IMG/VR virus record: IMGVR_UViG_3300021959_004274
Coordinates: 1-64,000 of that record
Length of the DNA: 64,000 nucleotides
Direction: 5' to 3' (one strand)
DNA from: a virus
Of this stretch, positions 212 to 50,462 are shown piece after piece. Both the position numbers and the translations under genes were made by a program. Below the pieces are notes generated by a model. It worked only from the letters and a program-made list of their open reading frames with translations, searched no databases and was not told the DNA's origin. Numbering within the stretch: position 1 is the first letter of the stretch; the number at the start of each line of letters is the position of its first letter.

Positions 212-497
212 CCATTAAAGGATATCCATTTGATCTTGCTGATACAGTAACTTCAACTCCTTTTTGTTCAGCAATTTCGTAAGGTAACACAGCAACAGTA
301 GCACTTCCGTTGTTATGAATATCTAAAGTAATATGTTCGGCACCTTTAGTATCATAATCAAAATGTTCCATTAAAGTTTCAATAACAAATTCCACAGTGG
401 TTTTTTCGTCATTGACATAAATGACTCTATACATAGGTGGTTCAGCTATCTGAAAGTCAGGTTTAATTTTGTCTTTAATTTCTACTTGTGTTCCCAT
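186..497 (-). CDS. clpS: ClpS-like N-degron adaptor
   Basis: 103 residues, the usual ClpS length. ClpS delivers N-end-rule substrates (N-terminal Leu, Phe, Tyr, Trp) to a Clp AAA+ unfoldase, normally ClpA. The fold signature is complete: a Y-R-V-I-Y-V-N-D strand (residues 23-30) holding the N/D pair that binds the substrate alpha-amine, the T-T-V-E-F-V helix start (33-38), and H61 in I-H-N-N-G matching the conserved pocket histidine. The gatekeeper after T-T is V35, where E. coli has Met40, so residue preference may differ. A flexible N-terminal extension precedes the core. A terminator separates it from hsp20, and a phage clpX lies 0.9 kb upstream on the same strand. Confidence 0.88.
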   Translation of the reverse strand: MGTQVEIKDKIKPDFQIAEPPMYRVIYVNDEKTTVEFVIETLMEHFDYDTKGAEHITLDIHNNGSATVAVLPYEIAEQKGVEVTVSARSNGYPLMVKIEPESV

Positions 498-528
498 TAT
501 TATCCTTCTTTGTTATGATTAAAATAGT

Positions 529-552
529 AGGGGACTAAAATACTAGTCCCCT
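529..552 (-). terminator. Rho-independent terminator between hsp20 and clpS
   Basis: Perfect 9-bp stem AGGGGACTA / TAGTCCCCT with a 6-nt loop. The minus-strand continuation is ACTATTTT and the plus-strand continuation is TTTCTATTATTT, so it could act in either direction. Its position after the hsp20 stop favours minus-strand use. Confidence 0.7.
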
Positions 553-587
553 TTCTATTATTTACTACCTAGTATATTATAATTATA

Positions 588-1025
588 TTATGACTTATAG
601 GTAATTGCAATACTCTTTGGCTTCATTTGTTCTGGAACTTCTCGTTCTAAATGAACAGTTAGAATACCATGCTCAACTGTAGCAGATTTAACTTCTACAT
701 ACTCAGCAAGTTGGAATGTACGTACAAACTTACGTGTACCAATGCCTTGATGTAAATAATTAACTTCTGCTTCATTATCAGCTTTTTCGCCTGTGATGAT
801 TAATTGACCGTCATTAACTTGAACGTCAATTTCACCTTCAGCAAAGCCTGCTGTAGCAACTTCAATAATGTAGTTATCGTCATCTTTTTTGATGATGTTG
901 TACGGCGGATAGTTAGTTGAAGTAGTTGCGTCAATTCGTGAAAGCATAGAATCGAATAAACGATCAATACCTACAGAATTGCGATAGAAAGGTGATAAAT
1001 CTAATGATGTTGAAAATTTTGTCAT
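588..1025 (-). CDS. hsp20: Small heat shock protein, Hsp20/IbpA type
   Basis: 145-residue sHSP. It has a short N-terminal arm with a Phe/Leu-rich IDRLFDSML helix, an alpha-crystallin domain of about residues 40-132 beginning YPPYNIIKKDDDNY, the A-G-F loop, the G-x-L-x-I/V strands (GQLIITGEK and GILTVHLER), and a C-terminal extension with the S-I-A-I stretch that docks on neighbouring subunits. sHSPs hold unfolding proteins for refolding, and homologues are common in aquatic T4-like phages. The start has a strong SD (AAGGAGA). The leader is about 80 nt and structured (separate entry). Confidence 0.95.
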   Translation of the reverse strand: MTKFSTSLDLSPFYRNSVGIDRLFDSMLSRIDATTSTNYPPYNIIKKDDDNYIIEVATAGFAEGEIDVQVNDGQLIITGEKADNEAEVNYLHQGIGTRKFVRTFQLAEYVEVKSATVEHGILTVHLEREVPEQMKPKSIAITYKS

Positions 1026-1109
1026 TTTGCTGTCTCCTTATAATAAGCAAGATTTATATTTGGGCACCATGCCCTAAAGTTGTAAGACCCTTATGGCATC
1101 TTACAAATT
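1026..1109 (-). promoter_or_regulatory. Structured hsp20 leader, candidate ROSE-like RNA thermometer
   Basis: Between a late promoter and the hsp20 ATG, the minus-strand RNA can form three elements in order. First is an 8-bp stem TTGTAAGA/TCTTACAA (1080-1087 with 1099-1106). Second is a GGGCA/TGCCC hairpin (1062-1066 with 1070-1074). Third is a TTGCT/AGCAA stem (1046-1050 with 1027-1031) that encloses the SD AAGGAGA (1033-1039). UUGCU upstream of the SD in an sHSP mRNA is the hallmark of ROSE-type thermometers. The structure is seen; the function is inferred. Confidence 0.4.
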
Positions 1110-1117
1110 TATTTATC
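1110..1117 (-). promoter_or_regulatory. T4-like late promoter element (GATAAATA) for hsp20
   Basis: Minus-strand GATAAATA, one base from the T4 late consensus TATAAATA. It lies just after the bS21 stop and about 85 nt before the hsp20 ATG. Confidence 0.5.
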
Positions 1118-1132
1118 ACAGAAGCAAGACTA

Positions 1133-1381
1133 TTAGAAAAGTTTCTTTGGTAGTTGTTGCGACGCGAGTTGTCTCTGCCAACGTTTCTTAGCGGCCGCTT
1201 TTTTGAGCTTACGCTTTTCAGTTGGTTTGATATAATACTCACGGTCACGCAAATCTTGAATCAGACCAGTGTTTGCTATCTTCTTCTTAAACTTACGTAG
1301 AGCTTTTTCAATGTTATCGTGGTCACCCAAAATAACTGTTGAACCGCCGCCACCTTTAAGTAGTGGATTATACTTTGCCAT
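1133..1381 (-). CDS. rpsU: Ribosomal protein bS21 homologue
   Basis: 82 residues, strongly basic. It carries the S21 core: the helix ALRKFKKKI, then NTGLIQDLRDREYYIKP, then a lysine-rich tail (TEKRKLKKAAAKKR). An N-terminal extension of about 20 residues with a GGGG turn precedes the core. bS21 sits near the anti-SD of 16S rRNA on the 30S subunit, and phage copies are thought to replace host bS21 and bias initiation. SD AAGGAGAC precedes the ATG. The 5' end overlaps the clpX stop by 14 bp, suggesting translational coupling. Confidence 0.9.
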   Translation of the reverse strand: MAKYNPLLKGGGGSTVILGDHDNIEKALRKFKKKIANTGLIQDLRDREYYIKPTEKRKLKKAAAKKRWQRQLASQQLPKKLF

Positions 1382-31879: not shown

Positions 31880-33283
31880 TTAACTTGATTTTAGATTAGA
31901 AAGCATCTGCTTGAGCTTGTTGCCTTGTACATCTGCTGTAACTTTGGCTGACTCGCCCTCTGGTTCTGTTACTGTTTTTTCACCAACTGTGGTAGTTGTT
32001 TTGATAGATTTCATTAGTTCACTAGGATTTGTTTGAGTGTATGCTGACTGTTGATCCTCTGCTAGATCTGTAATACGCAAACTTTCTACATTAAACTCTA
32101 AGTCTACTTTACTGCCTACACCACTAGAACTTCTAGTTTTCATTAACTGTATTTGATAACGACCACGCTCACGCATAGCTCTCGATGTAAATATACCAAA
32201 CACATTATCAGCAGTATTAATTTTACTCAAGCCACCTGCAATATGACTATGATCAAATTCTACTTCTTCAACTGCCGCTCTGTTTAACTGCGATGCTGTA
32301 ACAAAGATAATGTCTAGTTCTTTTGCTAGGTTACGTAACTCTTCACTTACATATTTGTCTTTAACAAACAAATCGTTTGGTGACACTTTAGCACTCACAG
32401 GCATAATCAAATCTAAATAGTCAACACAAAGGAAGTCTACTTTAGTTTTTGTTTGTATTTCTAATTCTTTTAAGTATGCTCTAATGTCATTAACGTTTGA
32501 CTGTGCAGGCATATATTTGATTCTAAGTTTACCTGACTTCTTGCCTACAAGTTTAACTTTCATTTCAACATCTTCAAGTTTCTTAAAGATTTCTTTTGAA
32601 CTAGTGTTAGTCATCATACTATCAAGTCGCATAGCACACAATCCTTCACTAAGTTCTAGTGTAATGTAAGCACCGTTAAGTCCTAGTTGGCTCCAGTTCA
32701 CTGCCAAGTTCTGCATAAACAAACTTTTACCCGAACCAGATCCGCCTGCAAATATCTGTAGTTCACCTCTGTTGAATCCACCATACAACGGTCTATCTAA
32801 TGCTGACCAGCCCGACGACACTTGTCCGTTTTTACTTTTTAATAGTTCAAGTCTGCCTTTAGGATCCTCAAAGTAATCTGTACCCATGTCTTTGGTTAAC
32901 GATATTTGTACAGCATCTTTGATTAATTTTTCTACAGGATTGTAGTTGCCTTTTTCTAACATGTCTGCTGACTTAAGAATAGCACGTTCTAGTTCTTGAC
33001 GTCTAGTAAACGACTCAAACTCTTCCATAAACCAACTGTAATGATCATCTGTTAAGTCAGGAAGATGTTGTAGTTTAGTTTTACTAACTGCTTGTACTTG
33101 CTCAAACGTAGGAATAGCCTTGTGCTTGTCCACATGCTCTTTAATAAATTTGGCCGCTTCTTGTAGACTACGATCAAAGTTTTCTGGATTGTAGATATTC
33201 TGCACACGGATATAGCTCTGAGCATCCTGTAGCATCATTTCTAAAAATAGTTTTTGTACTTCTAATGTATATTCTGTTGCCAT
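31880..33283 (-). CDS. 41: Replicative DNA helicase, gp41/DnaB family
   Basis: 467 residues. N-terminal helical primase-interacting domain; RecA-type core with Walker A F-A-G-G-S-G-S-G-K-S, Walker B F-L-C-V-D-Y-L-D-L-I, an H4-like F-V-T-A-S-Q-L-N-R, and E-V-E-F-D-H-S-H-I-A-G-G-L-S-K with the arginine-finger region R-A-M-R-E-R-G-R-Y-Q. It unwinds DNA 5'-3' at the fork as a hexamer. Encoded 14 nt after the primase start region, as expected for the primosome. A weak sigma70 promoter overlaps its start. Confidence 0.95.
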   Translation of the reverse strand: MATEYTLEVQKLFLEMMLQDAQSYIRVQNIYNPENFDRSLQEAAKFIKEHVDKHKAIPTFEQVQAVSKTKLQHLPDLTDDHYSWFMEEFESFTRRQELERAILKSADMLEKGNYNPVEKLIKDAVQISLTKDMGTDYFEDPKGRLELLKSKNGQVSSGWSALDRPLYGGFNRGELQIFAGGSGSGKSLFMQNLAVNWSQLGLNGAYITLELSEGLCAMRLDSMMTNTSSKEIFKKLEDVEMKVKLVGKKSGKLRIKYMPAQSNVNDIRAYLKELEIQTKTKVDFLCVDYLDLIMPVSAKVSPNDLFVKDKYVSEELRNLAKELDIIFVTASQLNRAAVEEVEFDHSHIAGGLSKINTADNVFGIFTSRAMRERGRYQIQLMKTRSSSGVGSKVDLEFNVESLRITDLAEDQQSAYTQTNPSELMKSIKTTTTVGEKTVTEPEGESAKVTADVQGNKLKQMLSNLKSS

Positions 33284-33289
33284 GTGTAT

Positions 33290-33317
33290 ATTATACGTTA
33301 CCTAATAGTTTTAACAA
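33290..33317 (-). promoter_or_regulatory. Weak sigma70-like promoter upstream of the helicase
   Basis: TATAAT (33290-33295) with TTGTTA (33312-33317) at 16-nt spacing, just before the helicase ATG and inside the primase end. Confidence 0.4.
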
Positions 33318-34269
33318 GTCTGCGTTTTGCCAATTCTATCTTGATTTTACTAGTTTCACGACTGTTCATAATAGTTATCAAGGTTCCTAATCTACCATAA
33401 TGTTTTACAGCATCGTTAACATCTTTAACATGCTCGGGCCAGTCTGGTATTGATACTGCCCAGCCTAGTTCTACTGCACGATCAATTAATTTTAGTCCAG
33501 CTTCGTCTTGATCAGGCACTACTGTTATCTGTTTGTGCTGTTGTTTTAATATTTGTGCTTGTTTATCACTGACTGTATTGTGTAAAACTGCTACTGCGTT
33601 AATGCTTAATGCGTCAAACAATCCTTCTACTACCACTAACTGTGTCCAATGTTCTTGTTGTAGATCTAATCCAAACACATAGCCTGCTTGTTGTTCATTG
33701 ATATACTTTGGTGTACGATCATCTAAGTAACGTGCTGACCAACCTACTACATCACCTTGATAAGTGTAAGGAACTACAATACGTTTTGCGTTACGTCCAT
33801 CAACCTCAGGCGATATCATATAAGGATAGTCTTCCCAATCTATTCCTCTGTTGCGTAAGTATTCTATAAACTCTGCATCACCTGTTTCTAGTAAGCGTAG
33901 TTCTTCAGGTAAGTCCTTATGTTCAAACTCTACTTTAACTTCTACTTCACGCTGTTGTTCTACTAGTTGTGCTATATCCTTATGCTTAAGACTTTCTAAA
34001 TTTAACCCTGCTATTGTATTTTGATCTAAGCCCATCCACGATAACAGTTTACGTGCTTTATAACTTAGTGTACGTCCTAGTTTAAAACTTGCTTTGAAAC
34101 CACAGTTAAAACAATGATAACTCCAATCTTCGCCGTTTTGTTTGATACCACCACGTTGTCTTTTATCCTGTCTTTCACCGTTGTGTTCACAGCAGACAGC
34201 ATTAAACGATACCCAGCCACTGGAAGTACGTTTATGTTTTGCAGGAATAACAGTCGTAATATCTAACAT
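33298..34269 (-). CDS. 61: DNA primase, gp61-like
   Basis: 323 residues. N-terminal zinc ribbon C-C-E-H ... Y-H-C-F-N-C-G-F (CHC2 type) for template recognition. The TOPRIM core has V-V-V-E-G-L-F-D-A-L-S (catalytic Glu) and V-P-D-Q-D-E-A-G (metal Asp pair). It makes RNA primers for lagging-strand synthesis with the adjacent helicase. Its ATG shares one base with the previous stop. Confidence 0.93.
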   Translation of the reverse strand: MLDITTVIPAKHKRTSSGWVSFNAVCCEHNGERQDKRQRGGIKQNGEDWSYHCFNCGFKASFKLGRTLSYKARKLLSWMGLDQNTIAGLNLESLKHKDIAQLVEQQREVEVKVEFEHKDLPEELRLLETGDAEFIEYLRNRGIDWEDYPYMISPEVDGRNAKRIVVPYTYQGDVVGWSARYLDDRTPKYINEQQAGYVFGLDLQQEHWTQLVVVEGLFDALSINAVAVLHNTVSDKQAQILKQQHKQITVVPDQDEAGLKLIDRAVELGWAVSIPDWPEHVKDVNDAVKHYGRLGTLITIMNSRETSKIKIELAKRRLVKTIR

Positions 34270-34985
34270 TAAGTTAGTATAACATCATTTATTTGAGAAT
34301 ACAACATTTCTGATAAAATTTGGTGACCTTTTTCATTTGGATGATGTCCGGGTGCGTGTATTTGTTTTGTATCTGTACGTGCTTGTAGTATGTCTTGTAA
34401 GTTTTGGTCAGGCCATTCTAGTGTATCTGTATACTCTACCAGAGTTCCAGGATTATATAAGTTAAATTGCATCAACGGAATATTTTTAGTTTTACTGATA
34501 CCATCAAAAAAATAAACTGCTTGTTGATAGTTTAGTTTTGATAGCTCATCGCAGTGGCTTAGTGTTAGGTATTGTTTACCAAATTGTTGCCATTCTTTAG
34601 GAATAACATCACTACCAAAGTTTACCCAAGTAGAATGTACATATTTGTTCCACGCTGGATCATTTGAATAACTTACATGTTCTGGATTATACCAAGTTTG
34701 TCTATCTGGTGCAGTTAGTCCTACTAAACAAAGAGTATCTGACCAATCTGTATTTTCTAAAAACCAAAGGAAGTTCCACATTGTACTTTGTAGGCTGGCA
34801 CCTGGGTGTCCATAATTTTCGTAAGGTACACCAAGTTTATCTGCTATGAGTCCTGAAAAGCAATGACTAAGCCTGTAGTCATCATTTTGTGTAAAGCAAC
34901 ACTCCCATTCAGGATGCGAGGGATCTACTAGTTCATCACCGTAAATCCAACTATCGCCAAATACGGCTAGTTTTTTAATGTTCAA
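34269..34985 (-). CDS. SGNH/GDSL-type esterase
   Basis: 238 residues. Block I V-F-G-D-S-W with the catalytic Ser, G-H-P-G-A-S (Gly block), V-G-L-T, and block V G-H-H-P-N-E-K-G-H with the catalytic His. The family removes acyl groups from polysaccharide or lipid. In phages, members deacetylate host surface glycans or act on modified capsule. It follows a virion-like gene with no gap. Confidence 0.82.
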   Translation of the reverse strand: MNIKKLAVFGDSWIYGDELVDPSHPEWECCFTQNDDYRLSHCFSGLIADKLGVPYENYGHPGASLQSTMWNFLWFLENTDWSDTLCLVGLTAPDRQTWYNPEHVSYSNDPAWNKYVHSTWVNFGSDVIPKEWQQFGKQYLTLSHCDELSKLNYQQAVYFFDGISKTKNIPLMQFNLYNPGTLVEYTDTLEWPDQNLQDILQARTDTKQIHAPGHHPNEKGHQILSEMLYSQINDVILT

Positions 34986-35755: not shown

Positions 35756-36133
35756 ATGTCAAACGATTTTTTTAAACAACTGTCAGAGAAGTATCCATTT
35801 ATCACTGTGGTGATGTATGGCAATGCAGAGTACGTAGGTATTGTGCAGAATCGTGATCACCTAGTGACCACAATGTATGACTTTGGGCGTATCATTGACA
35901 TTGAAATGAAACAAAGATTCTTAGAATTAGCAGAAACTTGGTGGTGGGAATCAAACAGATCAATTCCAATTAATATTTTCTTACGTGAAGAATGGGCTCA
36001 GTTTAAACCATTCCTACAAACATTTATTAATAAAGATTTAGAAATATTATACGGTCCTGCCACTTCATTAACAGACCTTGCTAAAAAGCGTACTAAGAAA
36101 AAATCAATTACACTTGTACGCCGAGTAGACTAA
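35756..36133 (+). CDS. Conserved T4-like phage protein (plus strand)
   Basis: 125 residues from the ATG at 35756. F-F-K-Q-L-S-E-K-Y-P-F-I-T-V-V-M-Y-G, E-Y-V-G-I-V-Q-N-R-D, E-T-W-W-W-E-S-N-R, I-P-I-N-I-F-L. A short alpha/beta protein widely conserved in aquatic T4-like phages in my memory, role unknown. Lone plus-strand gene between minus-strand genes; convergent with the DnaE-like gene (4-bp overlap). Confidence 0.75.
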   Translation: MSNDFFKQLSEKYPFITVVMYGNAEYVGIVQNRDHLVTTMYDFGRIIDIEMKQRFLELAETWWWESNRSIPINIFLREEWAQFKPFLQTFINKDLEILYGPATSLTDLAKKRTKKKSITLVRRVD

Positions 36134-36702
36134 ACCAATTCACTTAACAAATTCATATGTAAGGCAACCAGTACTGCGTAACTAACTGCGTGTGCTTTCT
36201 TAAAATAATAACTATCATCATCTGGCACCGTCCAAATATCTTCTGCAATAGTTTTCCAGTCTTTGCCTAGCAAGTGTCTTTTGCCTGGACGTATTAAAGC
36301 CAAAAACATAGCCATCCTGGGTATTGAATTTACTTCCATGTTTTTAATAAGATCATAATGATTACCAATGTGTATAATCTTTTCTACAAATGATTGATCT
36401 TTAAGTAATTCCCAACGAGGTTCTTGATTAAGCATTTGATCATAGTGCTGTTGATCACGAATTAGTTTGTAAACATTAACATTCAAAAAGTCAATCTTAA
36501 CATAGCCACGTTCTTCTGCTGACTCATAGTCAATACTAGCACAGTCATTGATTGGATCATAAGGTATTTCAGTTACATACACACCGGAGTTGTGTCTGCG
36601 TACTCCATCCTCACGATCTTGACGAGCAGAAGTATGCTCAATTAGTTTGAGTATATCCTCTCTATCTGCAAAATCAATATCAATGTCTGACTTAAACTTC
36701 AT
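36130..36702 (-). CDS. Miniature DnaE-like protein (C-family polymerase palm motifs)
   Basis: 190 residues from the ATG at 36702 (TAATG overlap). It reads like a compressed bacterial DNA polymerase III alpha palm. S-D-I-D-I-D-F matches P-D-F-D-V-D-F (catalytic Asp pair = D8/D10); R-H-N-S-G-V-Y-V-T matches the K-H-A-G-G-V-V-I strand; G-Y-V-K-I-D-F-L matches G-L-V-K-F-D-F-L (third Asp = D71); A-L-I-R-P-G matches A-L-F-R-P-G; K-A-H-A-V-S-Y-A matches K-S-H-S-A-A-Y-A. PHP, fingers and beta-binding regions are absent. Likely a non-replicative derivative, possibly regulatory or nucleotide-binding. Confidence 0.75.
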   Translation of the reverse strand: MKFKSDIDIDFADREDILKLIEHTSARQDREDGVRRHNSGVYVTEIPYDPINDCASIDYESAEERGYVKIDFLNVNVYKLIRDQQHYDQMLNQEPRWELLKDQSFVEKIIHIGNHYDLIKNMEVNSIPRMAMFLALIRPGKRHLLGKDWKTIAEDIWTVPDDDSYYFKKAHAVSYAVLVALHMNLLSELV

Positions 36703-37403
36703 TACCAACCTGCCTGCTTTAACATTTCTCTAAGATATTCTGTATCACCTGGATAATCTTTTAATTTTTTATGCCAACGTTCTGGATCAATGAAATCATA
36801 CACAATAGCTAGTTGTTCTTGTGTTAGGTTTTCTAAAAACTCGTGCCCCGAATCACAGTTAAAAATAGTCCAGCCTGTAATCCGTCCTGCGGTGATTAAA
36901 TGACATATCTTGTTTGAGTTACCATACCGTAAAAAATGTTCTGTAGGATTGTTTGTGTCGTATGCCCAAGCAACACCTGTTTCTAATGCACGTGTTAGTG
37001 CATCTGTTGCTGGTTCTTTGTATACCCATTCTTTTAAGAACTCATCATACAGTTTGTCAGTTCCCCAATAGTCTATACGTTTATTTCCCTTTAATAACCA
37101 ATCAGCAAAACGTTCTGCGTTAACCACACGTGCATTAACACAATAGTTGCCAAACTTAATAAATGCTTTATAGTATGCAGATGTAGCAAAGTCGTCAAAT
37201 GTTTTTTGTTTTGCTGAGCCTTGTGTTAGTTCATAAAAGCGTATAAAGTTTGTAAAGCCAATCCGACTTGCTGGTGTATCTTTATCTTGGAAACGTTTCT
37301 TTTGTTCGCAGACATGCACAGACAGTGTAGACTCTCTGGCAAATGATCTTTCACAATACTTACATTTATAAGTCAGCTTTAATTCGCTTGTCGTCCCAGC
37401 CAT
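36702..37403 (-). CDS. Zinc-finger protein of T4-like phages
   Basis: 233 residues. N-terminal C2HC finger: Y-K-C-K-Y-C-E-R-S-F-A-R-E-S-T-L-S-V-H-V-C. The rest is alpha-helical with W-A-Y-D-T-N-N-P-T-E and F-I-D-P-E-R-W. A DNA- or RNA-binding role is plausible. Overlaps the DnaE-like gene and the 159-residue gene, so the three are probably co-expressed from the promoter at 38352-38380. Confidence 0.7.
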   Translation of the reverse strand: MAGTTSELKLTYKCKYCERSFARESTLSVHVCEQKKRFQDKDTPASRIGFTNFIRFYELTQGSAKQKTFDDFATSAYYKAFIKFGNYCVNARVVNAERFADWLLKGNKRIDYWGTDKLYDEFLKEWVYKEPATDALTRALETGVAWAYDTNNPTEHFLRYGNSNKICHLITAGRITGWTIFNCDSGHEFLENLTQEQLAIVYDFIDPERWHKKLKDYPGDTEYLREMLKQAGW

Positions 37404-38351: not shown

Positions 38352-38380
38352 ATTGTATAGTCCTGTTTAAGTTTTGTCAA
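38352..38380 (-). promoter_or_regulatory. Sigma70 promoter, TTGACA-N17-TACAAT
   Basis: TTGACA (38375-38380) overlaps the uvsW stop; TACAAT (38352-38357); 17-nt spacer. Confidence 0.75.
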
Positions 38381-39837
38381 TCTTGCCACTCCGTTTTTTC
38401 TACCGTAAATGGATAGTTTGCTTCTCGATAAAATTGTTTACGTTTAGTTAAATGCCTTTTAGCAAATTTACAGGTTGATGTTATATCCCAAATTTGCACA
38501 AAATCTTTATCCTCAGCCTTTCTAATGCCTCGACCAATACTCTGAATAACCCGTACAAAACTTTTACCAGGCTCCACAAGCACCAAATTGAAAATCCGAG
38601 GAATGTTAATACCAACAGCGGCAACACCATAAGTAGCAACAATAACTCTATCGTCCATTGTGGCCACTTCGTCATAGGATTCCTTTCTATCATTTGCTTT
38701 AGTTCCTCCTGAAACAAACACTGATCCAGGTATAAGTTCTGTTAAACGTTTACCTGGTGCTATACGATCTACAAGAATAAGTGTATTGCCTGACTCTTTA
38801 ATTGAGTTAATTAGCCCAGCAATATACTTCATGCGGTCTTCTGTTTCTAGTAGATAACGTAATTCACTTTGATAATCTCTGTATTCAACGTGATCAACTA
38901 ACTGTACAATATTAACATGACAGTTTGCCAACACTCCTTCTTGCTGTAGTTCATTTGCACTCAGTCTACCAATAACCTCACCTAAACTACATTTCAAACT
39001 CATAAACTCATATTCTTCTTTGGGTACTGTACCAGTTAATCCCCAACGTATAGGAACATGTGACATTGGTCCTGTTAATAATGTTCTAAGTGCATCCGCT
39101 TTGGCCATGTGTACTTCATCTACCATGACACAGACTACGTCATGTAAAAACTCATCTATTGTGATATCAATATCTTTAGCACGAGTTTTCTTCATCATAA
39201 TGTTTAGACTCTGCCAAGTACAAATAGTATGTGTCTTGCCAAACTCTTTACGATCACCAAAGAACACACCTACGTCTAATCCCATGTTAATGTAATCTTC
39301 TTCAGTTTGCGTGACTAGACTTTTATTTGGAACAATAACTATTGTACGACCATGTGCTTCACATCTATGACTTAGCACAGCAGTGATTAAAGTTTTACCT
39401 GCACCTGTGGCTACTTCTTGTATGCACTGTGGATTTTCTAAGAACTTATTAACTATCTCAACTTGATAGTCACGTAACATGATTGGTTGGCCTTTAGCAG
39501 GATGGTTAGGTGGCCAAACATAGTCTGCATAACTATCTTCTTTAACTTTTTCAAATCCATAGTTAGTTGAATAGTCACGGATGTCTTCTAGTTCAATATC
39601 ATAATTAAACTCTTCTAATACAGGAATAATATCTGGCAATAGGTTAACATAAGTTGATCCACCTAGTTGAAAGAACCCTACCTTACCATCCCATCGTCCT
39701 AGTCTCACTGCTGGCATATATCTAGCACCTGGGACTTCGTATTTGAATTTATTGGTCAGCGTTTTACGAGCGTCAAGTTCAAGACCTTCAATCTTTACAT
39801 TAACTTCATCACGGACTATGATTTTACAATTTCGCAT
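38377..39837 (-). CDS. uvsW: UvsW-like RNA-DNA/DNA helicase (SF2)
   Basis: 486 residues. Motif I E-V-A-T-G-A-G-K-T-L, motif II C-V-M-V-D-E-V-H-M-A (DEVH), motif III W-G-L-T-G-T, motif V A-T-Y-G-V-A-A-V-G-I-N, motif VI Q-S-I-G-R-G-I-R. UvsW dissolves R-loops and regresses forks, switching origin to recombination-dependent replication. Tandem TATAAT boxes precede it but no clear -35. Confidence 0.95.
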   Translation of the reverse strand: MRNCKIIVRDEVNVKIEGLELDARKTLTNKFKYEVPGARYMPAVRLGRWDGKVGFFQLGGSTYVNLLPDIIPVLEEFNYDIELEDIRDYSTNYGFEKVKEDSYADYVWPPNHPAKGQPIMLRDYQVEIVNKFLENPQCIQEVATGAGKTLITAVLSHRCEAHGRTIVIVPNKSLVTQTEEDYINMGLDVGVFFGDRKEFGKTHTICTWQSLNIMMKKTRAKDIDITIDEFLHDVVCVMVDEVHMAKADALRTLLTGPMSHVPIRWGLTGTVPKEEYEFMSLKCSLGEVIGRLSANELQQEGVLANCHVNIVQLVDHVEYRDYQSELRYLLETEDRMKYIAGLINSIKESGNTLILVDRIAPGKRLTELIPGSVFVSGGTKANDRKESYDEVATMDDRVIVATYGVAAVGINIPRIFNLVLVEPGKSFVRVIQSIGRGIRKAEDKDFVQIWDITSTCKFAKRHLTKRKQFYREANYPFTVEKTEWQD

Positions 39838-45141: not shown

Positions 45142-46063
45142 GTAATCTTTCTCTCATAAAATGCCAGGCACTGCCACGAGTAACTTCATCTGTAGACCAA
45201 TGGCATTGACTTAGTCTATGATAGAAATCATTTCTATCAAACAATTCAGGATTTTCTATGTTGTTAAGATCAGTATTACAAATAGGATAACACTGACTAC
45301 GTTTAGGAACAGGATCTGTAACAAATACAGGAACCCCAGACATTATACTTGCTACTCCAGGAGAACTGTTGTACGTTACAGTAGCATGAGTACGTTTTAG
45401 TTGTTCTGTTATGTTAATGTCTAAGGGACGTTGTTTTCTAATATTAGTCCAGGGAGATATATCAAGTTGATCTAGTGTAAGTAGGTCACCTGGGTGGCCT
45501 CTAACAATAATATCTCTCTGTGTTTTTGTTCTAATATGATTAATAGTTTGAGTTGCCCACTCAATGACATTAGCGCCATTCATTGACCAACCACCGTTGC
45601 GTTGTAGACATAACAATATTTCAGGACCAGTATGCCAATCAACATCTACAAATTTATAGTTTCTTTTAATTTTATTCCAGCGAGTTAGATCTCTGTCTTG
45701 ATCAAAATACCAAGCATCGTTGGCAAATATTCCATCTAATCCATACCGTTGATACTTGTTAATATCTGACATATCTAAAAATTGAAACAAATTGCTATCA
45801 ATAATTAAACTATGTTTACCATGCTGACGTTGATGATCTATTGCGTTTTTTCTAATCATTAAATGAGGTGCTTGTTTACTACCTTCATGAACATAACCCT
45901 GAATAACAGCAACATCACAATTAGGAATAACACGATTATCCTCAACTACAATAACCTGATCTCCAGCAAGTGCAACACCTTGAGCCCAACTATTTAAAAT
46001 CATTTTTTTAAATTCGTTTTTACTCAGTCGAGGTATGCCCGATAGATAAACTGCTACTCTCAC
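45131..46063 (-). CDS. Glycosyltransferase-like protein (second copy of shared domain)
   Basis: 310 residues. Motifs D-I-I-V-R-G-H-P-G-D, A-T-V-T-Y-N-S-S-P-G-V-A-S-I-M-S-G-V-P-V-F-V-T, C-Y-P-I-C-N-T-D-L, and W-S-T-D-E-V-T-R-G-S-A-W-H-F-M-R-E parallel the 283-residue neighbour. Likely a sugar transferase of GT-B type. Overlaps the upstream gene by 4 bp. Confidence 0.75.
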   Translation of the reverse strand: MRVAVYLSGIPRLSKNEFKKMILNSWAQGVALAGDQVIVVEDNRVIPNCDVAVIQGYVHEGSKQAPHLMIRKNAIDHQRQHGKHSLIIDSNLFQFLDMSDINKYQRYGLDGIFANDAWYFDQDRDLTRWNKIKRNYKFVDVDWHTGPEILLCLQRNGGWSMNGANVIEWATQTINHIRTKTQRDIIVRGHPGDLLTLDQLDISPWTNIRKQRPLDINITEQLKRTHATVTYNSSPGVASIMSGVPVFVTDPVPKRSQCYPICNTDLNNIENPELFDRNDFYHRLSQCHWSTDEVTRGSAWHFMRERLPKS

Positions 46064-47808
46064 TTACTATACCACTCCTGTAATAATCTCCAGGCTGTAC
46101 CGTCCTGAAGTTCACCTTGCGTAAATTGATGATAGGCAAGATTACAAAGTAGATAGTATACTTCATCTTCTGTTGGTATAACTGGTGTTTCTAATAAACT
46201 AAGATCGTTTGAACACAACGGCGAGGCCGCATTTTGTCCTAATACAAAAGCAGGCTTACCTTCCATTAAAGATTCAACAGCGGCTATTGAATTATAAGTT
46301 ACTGTACAATGTACGTCATCCAGGAGAGCTTTTTGTATGGTATCTTCAAGCACACGTTCCTTTCTTGTTTTCTTTAAACGTATCTCAATGGGCCTATCTG
46401 TATATTTTTCAATTTCTTTTATAGTTGTTTCCATCCAGACATCTAAATCTTCACCATAAAAGCTCATAGCTTTATCACTAGGAGGTACTACTAATATCTT
46501 ACTGCCTGATGTAAACTTTTTAGTATATCCGTTTGCTTTAGTAAAACGGTCACTGGGCACATCTCTTAACTCTCCGCAATACTGTAAACTATTTTTAGTT
46601 ACTCTATGCCATAGTTTTGATTTACCGTTGCCATAGTAGCCAGTATCAACAAAATAAAAGTCTCTATTCTTTTCTCGGCACCAATCAAAGATGTGTCGTT
46701 TGGTTATACCTCTAAACACAATAGGTCTAGTATCCTGATCAGCATGTCCTTCGTAAACTGTTTTCCAATCAGTCAAACTTCCGCCTGCGCCTGTAGTAAA
46801 AAAATCTACTACTTTGTCCCACTTATAACCTTTTTTAATCAATGATTCACTTAATTCTTCCATATCGCTTATTCCTAATACTGAATCTGTTTTGTGATGA
46901 TTTTTTAATCTATTAACAAAGTCTGCTAACTTAGGTGTATCATCATATACATGATGTACATCGTCTAATATTTTTTTAAGATCTGTAAAATACTTTTTAT
47001 ATTCTATAGAATATTGAAGTTGATCTACTCCAACTATTCTTTTTAAGTCTTGTTCTTGCTGTTGGTTATATTCGTCTAAATACTCTAACCAAAGATCACC
47101 ATACTGTACTTGACTCCAACTGCCTATGCCTGCTAGTTGATATTCTTTAGGTAAGGTATTGTCGTCAAACCAAGGACCGCCATCTGTATAATGTATGGCA
47201 CCAGGTTTACCCCAATCCTTTTCTTCATAATAACCTGACAACCAGTTCCAAGTTGGTTGTAAAAATCTTATATTAGATTCTTTTGTCCATTCAAATCTAT
47301 GTAAGTAACTTAGCGGTTGTTTATTAATATTATCTAAACTCAGTCTACGACAATCTCTATGCTCACAATTAAATACCATCATCGACGACCAATTCTTTTT
47401 AGGATACACAGACTGTGTTTTACCGTCCATTTTTAATTTTGTTTTTGGACTGTATCCATAATTTTCATGAGGAACTACAGAAACAGAATTGCCAAACTCA
47501 TCAATATTGTCGTAAACTTCTTTAATATCTTGTGTCCATAAAAAATCACAGTCACAAAATATTGCTTTACCTTGATAGTTCATTAAGTAAGGAACTAAAA
47601 ATCTTGTGTAAGTAAATTCTGTTGATGCTGTATGTTCACGCTTACGTGTTATTATCTTGTCACGTTCTAGCTCATCTAGTTTGAGGTAATGTATTTTAAC
47701 AGGAGCAGAAGCGTGTTTTAATATGCTGTAGGCACAAACATCTGCGGCTATGGGTTCACGTGAATCCCATCCTATAAAAACATTGATTACTGTATGAGGT
47801 ATTGACAT
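46060..47808 (-). CDS. Bifunctional glycosyltransferase: GT-A domain fused to GT-B-like domain
   Basis: 582 residues. Domain 1 (about 1-260): F-I-G-W-D-S-R-E-P, Y-T-R-F-L-V-P-Y-L, A-I-F-C-D-C-D-F-L-W (DxD) and H-Y-T-D-G-G-P-W, the GT8-like pattern. Domain 2 (about 300-582) ends with R-P-I-E-I-R, C-T-V-T-Y-N-S-I-A-A-V-E-S-L-M-E-G-K-P-A-F-V, P-L-C-S-N-D-L, G-T-A-W-R-L-L-Q-E, homologous to the two neighbours. Two successive sugar additions by one polypeptide are plausible. Confidence 0.78.
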   Translation of the reverse strand: MSIPHTVINVFIGWDSREPIAADVCAYSILKHASAPVKIHYLKLDELERDKIITRKREHTASTEFTYTRFLVPYLMNYQGKAIFCDCDFLWTQDIKEVYDNIDEFGNSVSVVPHENYGYSPKTKLKMDGKTQSVYPKKNWSSMMVFNCEHRDCRRLSLDNINKQPLSYLHRFEWTKESNIRFLQPTWNWLSGYYEEKDWGKPGAIHYTDGGPWFDDNTLPKEYQLAGIGSWSQVQYGDLWLEYLDEYNQQQEQDLKRIVGVDQLQYSIEYKKYFTDLKKILDDVHHVYDDTPKLADFVNRLKNHHKTDSVLGISDMEELSESLIKKGYKWDKVVDFFTTGAGGSLTDWKTVYEGHADQDTRPIVFRGITKRHIFDWCREKNRDFYFVDTGYYGNGKSKLWHRVTKNSLQYCGELRDVPSDRFTKANGYTKKFTSGSKILVVPPSDKAMSFYGEDLDVWMETTIKEIEKYTDRPIEIRLKKTRKERVLEDTIQKALLDDVHCTVTYNSIAAVESLMEGKPAFVLGQNAASPLCSNDLSLLETPVIPTEDEVYYLLCNLAYHQFTQGELQDGTAWRLLQEWYSK

Positions 47809-49328: not shown

Positions 49329-50462
49329 TTATTCCTCTGTCTCCTCTGTTTGAACTGCTTCGGCTTCGTCTATTGCTTTCATTTCCATTTCTGTAGCAAC
49401 ATCGATACTTGCCTCTACATCTGCTATATTTACTTCTTTTGATTGATTTTTGAGGTGTTCCATAACCTTATCTAAACAACCTTGTTCGTTTGATTCCCAG
49501 GCTTTACGGAACTGTTTAATTTCACCAGCACTGTCTGGTTCACCAAAACGTAGTCTATTACCATCTTTAACTAGTAAGCCTGCTTTTTCAGCCATATCAA
49601 CTAATCCTGAATATGGGTTCATACCTGTTTCATATGGAATCTTAACCTGTACTGATTCAAATGGTTTAGCATAACGAGTCTTCATAATTTTACATGCGGC
49701 TCTAATACCCATAACATCTGATACTTTGTTACCATCTTCGTCTTCTTTTAGTTTTAGTTTACGCATAGCAACAACAATACTTGAAGCATAGATAAAGCCT
49801 TGTCCACCTGATATTTTATCATCTGGATCAAACATGTCCTGACTTGCGTAAGTGTGGTTAGTACATACCATGCCAACGTTAGCAGAACCAAACATGTTAA
49901 CGCAGTTACGAACTAAGGCTGTTAGTGCTTTAGGCTTACGTCCCATATCACCTTTTAAGTCACCTTTTTGGAACTGATCAACATCTGTAGGAGTTAGTAA
50001 CATACCTAAACTGTCAATAACAAATAGTACCTTAGGACGATCTTCTTCTGCCATAGCACGATATTCACCCATAAAGTCGTTGATAGTTTTTGCTACATCA
50101 TCAATCATGGCCATGTTGAGTTTAAGTAGCTTATCTTCAGATGTATCAACATCCAATGCCTGTAACCAATTTTCATCTAAGGCGTTTTCACTATCAATTA
50201 AGACAACAAAGATGCCTTGCTTTTGTGCTTCTTTAACAATGTTACCTGAACAGATATAACTTTTACCCGCACCTGATTCACCAGCAAACACAGTTACTTT
50301 GCCTAGCGGAATACCTTTAGTAAAGTCTCCCGAAATCAAATAATTAAGGGCATAATTACCTGTTGATACCCAGTCTGTTGGATCGTTAAATCCTATTGAT
50401 AGTCCTGCAATGCTTTTGCTGATACTCTTTCTAAACTTACTTACATCAAATGGTTTGGCCAT
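49329..50462 (-). CDS. uvsX: UvsX, RecA-like recombinase
   Basis: 377 residues. Walker A F-A-G-E-S-G-A-G-K-S, catalytic D-S-E-N-A-L-D-E, Walker B V-L-F-V-I-D-S-L-G, L2-like region with G-G-Q-G-F-I-Y-A-S. Acidic C-terminus (E-E-A-V-Q-T-E-E-T-E-E). Catalyses strand exchange for recombination-dependent replication and repair. Pairs with uvsY and gp32 nearby. Confidence 0.95.
   Translation of the reverse strand: MAKPFDVSKFRKSISKSIAGLSIGFNDPTDWVSTGNYALNYLISGDFTKGIPLGKVTVFAGESGAGKSYICSGNIVKEAQKQGIFVVLIDSENALDENWLQALDVDTSEDKLLKLNMAMIDDVAKTINDFMGEYRAMAEEDRPKVLFVIDSLGMLLTPTDVDQFQKGDLKGDMGRKPKALTALVRNCVNMFGSANVGMVCTNHTYASQDMFDPDDKISGGQGFIYASSIVVAMRKLKLKEDEDGNKVSDVMGIRAACKIMKTRYAKPFESVQVKIPYETGMNPYSGLVDMAEKAGLLVKDGNRLRFGEPDSAGEIKQFRKAWESNEQGCLDKVMEHLKNQSKEVNIADVEASIDVATEMEMKAIDEAEAVQTEETEE

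Follow-up and report, generated by a model that had tools for sequence, protein, structure and literature searches.

An uncultivated phage gene for the C-terminal part of a split minimal DNA polymerase III alpha, and the probable N-terminal partner encoded separately in related phages

How does a phage protein of only 190 residues come to carry the landmark blocks of bacterial DNA polymerase III alpha (PolIII alpha), given that the C-family polymerases of cells are long chains of many domains (1160 residues in E. coli), and what might such a protein do in a virus? The gene that raises this question lies in the window, i.e. the whole stretch of 64,000 nucleotides that was analysed (positions 1 to 64,000 of IMG/VR virus record IMGVR_UViG_3300021959_004274). 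Our preferred reading, to which we give a probability of roughly 0.78, is that its product, referred to below as the C-half, assembles with a second protein, the N-half, into a thumbless split C-family core, an accessory polymerase that would carry out short-patch synthesis alongside a family B polymerase (PolB). The gene and its catalytic codons are located as follows.

36130..36702, minus strand: C-half of the split minimal PolIII alpha (PHROG match, motifs, model and alignments)
36673..36687, minus strand: codons of the DIDID motif (D6-D10), matching E. coli D401/D403/D405 (sequence and alignment)
36490..36492, minus strand: codon of D71 in VKIDFL, equivalent to E. coli D555 (sequence and alignment)

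The reading frame extends from an ATG at 36702 to a stop codon ending at 36130. A TTG two codons 5' of this ATG is a possible alternative start, and most relatives displayed an ATG at the aligned start or adjacent to it. The initial annotation, made from the sequence alone, had listed five PolIII alpha blocks in order within the 190 residues, and all of them were present in the translation: SDIDIDF (5-11), RHNSGV (36-41), VKIDFL (68-73), ALIRPG (135-140) and KKAHAVSYA (168-176). Their E. coli DnaE counterparts are PDFDVDF (400-406), KHAGGV (510-515), LVKFDFLG (551-558), LFRPGP (637-642) and GFNKSHSAAYAL (755-766), a pairing made by eye with which the structural alignment agrees. Likewise, the three catalytic aspartates said to be kept were recognized as D6, D8 and D71, matching E. 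coli D401, D403 and D555, which we take to be the catalytic residues of DnaE; D10, beside this set, is also invariant. The PHP and clamp-binding parts are missing as had been claimed, but the claimed absence of fingers was true only in part: the fourth and fifth blocks fall outside the palm, within the portion of DnaE that usually goes by the name of fingers. The GS nucleotide-binding motif of DnaE and PolC was absent from the 190 residues of the C-half.

At the sequence level, the C-half matched PHROG 11778 ('DNA polymerase') with an E value of 5.7e-62 (residues 2-188 on positions 4-193 of 197), followed by phrog_405 (E 7.5e-6) and phrog_11165 (E 0.009). Phrog_405 is the full-length DnaE family, since E. 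coli DnaE matches it over residues 4-1150, and it was matched by 21 of 26 C-half family members at E <=0.01 (best 3.2e-9); phrog_11165 was matched by 10 of the 26 at E 0.01. Pfam DNA_pol3_finger was found in five of these 26 relatives at E <=0.1 (best 3.3e-5), the window protein not being among them. A chance motif match was rejected in view of the family-wide matches to DnaE profiles and of the predicted C-family fold. When used alone against Pfam, NCBIfam and PDB sequences, the window protein gave no DnaE match. No Pfam PHP or HhH match was recorded in it or in family members, and the family profile retrieved only two GCN4 constructs from the PDB (E 0.21 and 0.37). Single-sequence profile comparison with E. 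coli DnaE (hhalign) was weak (E 0.0076, probability 5), and hhalign of the C-half profile against the C-part of phage Larrie (see below) aligned the KSHS block alone.

Relatives of the C-half occurred in 63 of 50,697 phage records and were confirmed in at least 547 viral-contig stretches, those of either half being confirmed in hundreds of such stretches. Homologues lacking the aspartates were looked for and none was encountered: D6, D8, D10 and D71 were kept in 102/102 and 26/26 aligned C-halves, two sets that share 16 sequences. Residues H37, G40, K69, R138, P139, K141, H171 and Y175 were likewise invariant in both alignments, and position 168 was a lysine, replaced by R in 2 of the 26. The 26 rows were hand-picked from 55 non-redundant sequences; the 102 C-halves remained from 159 after removal of near-duplicates, of sequences with no ATG near the match and of those that were too short, and the window protein was substituted for the identical protein of contig L001. 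The pN/pS ratio of the C-half was 0.16-0.25 against five close relatives and 0.29-0.38 against three distant ones, for which the comparison is saturated. Together, invariant catalytic residues and low pN/pS argue, from the alignments, for a metal site that would be functional rather than a relic or a decoy.

The structure check against DnaE proposed in the initial annotation yielded the C-family palm as the predicted fold. This AlphaFold2 model, based on the 102-sequence alignment, reached a pLDDT of 93.8 and a pTM of 0.85. Its best 15 rows in VIA-align were all PolIII-type polymerases (Z 9.9 to 6.3, eight of them at Z >=8), and the rows after them, a glyoxalase and DNA polymerase gamma, were at Z 3.4. 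Three of the 15 (9qrn, 9qpc and 9qrl) are titled 'DNA polymerase' with or without inhibitor and were assigned to PolC by length and numbering. VIA-align 2 is a re-examination of the chains that Foldseek had matched (620 and 107 were aligned) and not a search; Foldseek alone gave modest values for the C-half (best E 7.4e-4, TM by query 0.45). Residues 1..190 of the model aligned with 397..779 of E. coli DnaE (2hnh; Z 8.9, 186 aligned, 3.7 A) and with 968..1294 of PolC (3f2b; Z 9.8). The 186 aligned residues cover a DnaE span of 383 residues. By the usual domain borders of DnaE, the protein is thus, according to the model, devoid of the thumb, of a large part of the fingers, of the PHP domain before them and of the clamp- and tau-binding parts after them, the latter two regions of E. 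coli DnaE being presumably located beyond residue 779. The loss of the thumb and of the larger part of the fingers casts doubt on polymerase activity.

The nucleotide-binding motif absent from the C-half was found on another protein. A Pfam PF07733 search of large relatives gave a match in three of five records, far from the C-half gene. The product is about 170 residues long (177 in Phosso, 169 in Ettore) and displays GVGRGSSVASYVLFLIG near its end; GxGRGS was present in 70/70 and 6/6 N-half sequences. In C-family enzymes the glycine-serine motif binds the incoming nucleotide; here, the GRGS motif sits on the N-half and the metal ligands on the C-half. The N-half set was reduced from 80 to 73 sequences (near-duplicates, sequences with no nearby ATG and those too short were dropped), and the 70-row alignment further left out L120, L168 and L191 by hand. 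The N-half profile aligned with residues 323-393 of E. coli DnaE (E 3.4e-7) and matched PDB DnaE chains with a best E of 3.6e-4. A model of the N-half from record G013 (pLDDT 91.9) aligned through residues 68..168 with 279..393 of 2hnh (Z 10.0) and with 305..413 of 5lew (Z 12.4); among the matches listed, all 15 were PolIII-type polymerases, and Foldseek alone gave a best E of 0.029. Residues 1-67 of the modelled N-half, the N-terminal third of the protein encoded at L138:2845-3348, were confidently predicted and lie outside the structural matches listed, which is not evidence of a new fold.

The two halves met at a single junction. The N-half C-terminus was exactly EFL[KR] in 65/73 sequences, the others being close variants or ending a few residues later, and in the 102 C-halves the start precedes DxDID by 1 to 18 residues, in most cases by 3 to 5. 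In E. coli numbering, the match of the N-half finishes at 393 (FERFLN) and that of the C-half starts at 397, so that the pair covers a single chain without overlapping. A present-day split intein, of the kind that joins cyanobacterial DnaE, was rejected as an explanation, since the N-half and C-half ends at the junction leave no room for it.

Both halves also travel together. Among nine large records chosen by the presence of the N-half, eight contained a C-half, the exception being G006 (359 kb, ends classed linear). Conversely, an N-half was present in all 12 large records selected for their C-half; for 10 of them it was known beforehand (only L197 and a Vibrio phage were new) and six named phages among them contributed to the N-half profile itself, so that the nine records are the fairer test. 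In phage records, the N-half was detected 60 times at E 1e-10, and 59 of these were also among the 60 C-half records listed (63 in all). PP728206 (109 kb) appeared in the C-half list only and had no N-half, and OP752703 (RAS14) appeared in the N-half list only, in comparison with the C-half records listed (60 of 63). None of these counts is made of independent cases, because they include GenBank/RefSeq duplicates, near-identical phages and close relatives. Escherichia phage 121Q carries such a pair of halves, with gene 56 as the N-half and gene 16 as the C-half. The attribution of the locus to a T4-like phage group replicating with a family B polymerase agreed with the detection of PolB in 21/21 large records tested.

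The window's own record of 92,187 bases, classed linear and incomplete, yielded neither an N-half, with a profile that was positive in 21/21 large records, nor a family B polymerase. The record is a fragment, and its phage presumably also possesses an N-half, although it may be without one. The nearest long relative compared, G013 (111 kb), shares its IMG/VR sample number with the L001 contig, which encodes a C-half identical to that of the window. G013 was collinear, in reversed orientation, with positions 20.6-40.8 kb of the window. Projected from its location in G013 (50.5 kb), the N-half might lie outside the record, about 5-11 kb past its left end, a weak projection because collinearity with G013 was not seen for window positions 0-20 kb and the comparison was made without G013 20-32 kb.

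The initial annotation had also placed the C-half next to zinc-finger and replication genes, and these were indeed found close by.

38377..39837, minus strand: UvsW-like DNA helicase (conserved neighbour)
36702..37403, minus strand: zinc-finger-like gene, phrog_11058, of unknown function (weak C2H2 match)
35756..36133, plus strand: convergent gene, phrog_11637, of unknown function, 125 residues (its 3' end overlaps the C-half gene by 4 bases)
33298..34269, minus strand: DNA primase, Toprim (conserved neighbour)
31880..33283, minus strand: DnaB-like replicative helicase (conserved neighbour)

In the window, the UvsW-like helicase gene is followed by two small genes, the zinc-finger-like gene and the C-half gene, and then by genes for a BppU_N-like protein, a 238-residue protein, the primase and the DnaB helicase. 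A similar order is annotated in 121Q and readable in Vibrio phage 2.275. The zf-C2H2 match of the upstream gene (E 4.2e-4, 21.1 bits) was under the 25.2 cut-off; the stop codon of this gene and the start of the C-half gene overlap by one base (TAATG). Among 90 loci examined, redundancy being kept, 83 had room for flanking genes; a homologue of the zinc-finger-like gene occurred upstream of the C-half in 81 of them, and an opposite-strand homologue of the convergent gene downstream in 78. Neither flanking homologue was found in XacN1 or in CM1, the latter being covered by only 600 upstream bases. The zinc-finger-like protein is a possible partner subunit. The phrog_11637 gene is the lone reversed gene here.

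Two other genes of the window deserve mention. The 238-residue protein between the primase and BppU_N-like genes (34269-34985, minus strand) matched nothing in PHROG at E 0.01 or in Pfam at 0.001 and had no homologue in the two G013 stretches compared. A 582-residue protein (46060-47808, minus strand) displayed a weak match to glycosyltransferase family 8 (E 2.6e-5, 24.4 bits against a cut-off of 24.3), and a RecA/UvsX-like gene (49329-50462) lies about 1.5 kb from it.

Breaks at the same loop were also observed in DnaE genes of phages of Bacteroidota.

L103:2146-5726: broken DnaE gene of Tenacibaculum phage Larrie (break at or near the same loop)
L275:1370-4970: broken DnaE gene of Cellulophaga phage phiST (break at or near the same loop)
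L274:2789-4522: broken DnaE gene of Bacteroides phage BS-TP1 (break at or near the same loop)

In phiST and Larrie a full-length DnaE is encoded by two adjacent genes (phrog_13169/12219). As in the jumbo-phage split, the break falls after FERFLN and before DxDxD; unlike in that split, the genes are adjacent, the N-part carries an extra tail of about 57 residues, and Larrie keeps the PHP, palm, finger and HhH Pfam domains. In BS-TP1 a similar N-part tail directly follows PERAGL. This tail, roughly 57 to 75 residues long in the three phages, looks like a degenerate Hint/intein piece; the Larrie N-part gave no intein match in Pfam at E 1. Both halves were also found in the genome of the PA5oct-like phage MIJ3, whose PolB is described as split by a putative split intein (PMC6892783). 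Intein-driven gene fracture at a conserved site would be a possible route to the jumbo-phage split, which we put forward as a guess.

How might the two proteins work? The C-half would supply the metal-binding aspartates D6, D8 and D71, and its K69, R138, K141, K168 and H171 would probably face the triphosphate and the template. The second protein of about 170 residues, encoded elsewhere and ending at the loop where the C-half begins, would supply GRGS. Non-covalent binding of the halves would then rebuild one Pol-beta-like nucleotidyltransferase site, devoid of the thumb, of most of the fingers, of the PHP nuclease and of the clamp-binding C-terminus. With neither thumb nor clamp-binding parts the pair should be distributive, which favours short-patch synthesis. 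The phage would most likely use the pair next to PolB to fill gaps, for repair or to assist on one strand.

The best surviving alternative, which we nevertheless consider unlikely, is a catalytically dead relic or regulator, in which the halves keep their fold and hold nucleotide or DNA, for instance to sense damage or dNTPs or as a structural part of the phage replisome, with no polymerisation. The missing thumb and fingers (186 residues over a DnaE span of 383), a PolB already present in 21/21 large relatives and the fact that no reported activity was found in the open-licence literature all fit this possibility. Yet, the catalytic aspartates, the lysine two residues before D71 and the GRGS of the partner were invariant across a diverged family, and dead enzyme relatives usually lose their metal ligands. 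Highly improbable is an anti-host protein, the C-half alone mimicking or poisoning the PolIII replisome of the host, which it does resemble in sequence and fold through DnaE. Against this stand the almost constant presence of an N-half in the same records, complementary to the C-half at a single junction, its conserved place among phage replication genes and the fact that no tau- or clamp-binding region is left, the match ending at E. coli 779. More generally, a C-half acting by itself, as the inactive regulator or host-replisome decoy suggested in the initial annotation, is hard to reconcile with an N-half that is nearly always encoded in the same genomes. A decaying fragment of a captured bacterial dnaE, to which one might be led by the much shorter length of the C-half and by the term truncated applied to CBB_328 (PMC5259590), was rejected as having a negligible chance, on account of purifying selection (pN/pS 0.16-0.25), boundaries conserved in 73 N-halves and 102 C-halves, compact high-confidence models of both halves and the finding of both proteins in 59/60 listed phage records, with relatives in hundreds of viral-contig stretches.

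Returning to the short-patch accessory polymerase, an active pair would define the minimum for C-family catalysis, offer a system in two pieces whose nucleotide and metal sites could be altered independently, and reveal a virus that employs replicative polymerases of two unrelated families together. A bolder version, improbable in our opinion, is that the pair is the smallest natural C-family polymerase, working thumbless beside PolB with the phrog_11058 product as a third subunit, whose grip on DNA would replace that of the thumb and clamp-binding parts.

Compared with bacterial DnaE and PolC, the C-half shares the palm fold, the catalytic aspartates and the RPG and KSHS-like blocks. Unlike them, it is 190 residues long instead of 1160 (E. 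coli), its GRGS motif is carried by another protein, and it is devoid of PHP, thumb, HhH, OB and clamp-binding parts. PolIII genes have been noted before in phage genomes. CBB_328 of phage CBB (172 residues against 1120) was called truncated in 2017 (PMC5259590) and, by its size, is the N-half; Attai et al. (2018) listed a PolIII alpha in Atu_ph07 (PMC6102473), and Sinorhizobium phage AP-J-162 is recorded with two PolIII subunits (PMC11242549). No experimental work on the split mini-polymerase, be it an activity or a biochemical test, was found in the open-licence literature.

The closest known system is the split minimal PolIII alpha of group 2.2 jumbo phages, recognized from sequence by Iyer et al. 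in 2021 (PMC7824862). That it occurs alongside a family B polymerase was published in the same paper (PMC7824862), so that the C-family palm called unexpected in the initial annotation is no longer new. The window gene is the C-half of that split PolIII alpha, as matched by the paper's description. In our matching to the same description, PHROG 11778 corresponds to the paper's C-half and PHROG 11127 to its N-half. Both systems consist of an N-terminal NTP-binding part and a C-terminal Mg2+- and template-binding part, and both are encoded by distant genes in genomes that also possess a family B polymerase (here, those of the relatives); no difference in kind was found from the system as described there (PMC7824862). 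Relative to that description, the present study adds a member from an uncultivated phage, a junction defined at the residue level, the structural tiling of the two halves on one DnaE chain, co-occurrence counts and the conserved pair of flanking genes.
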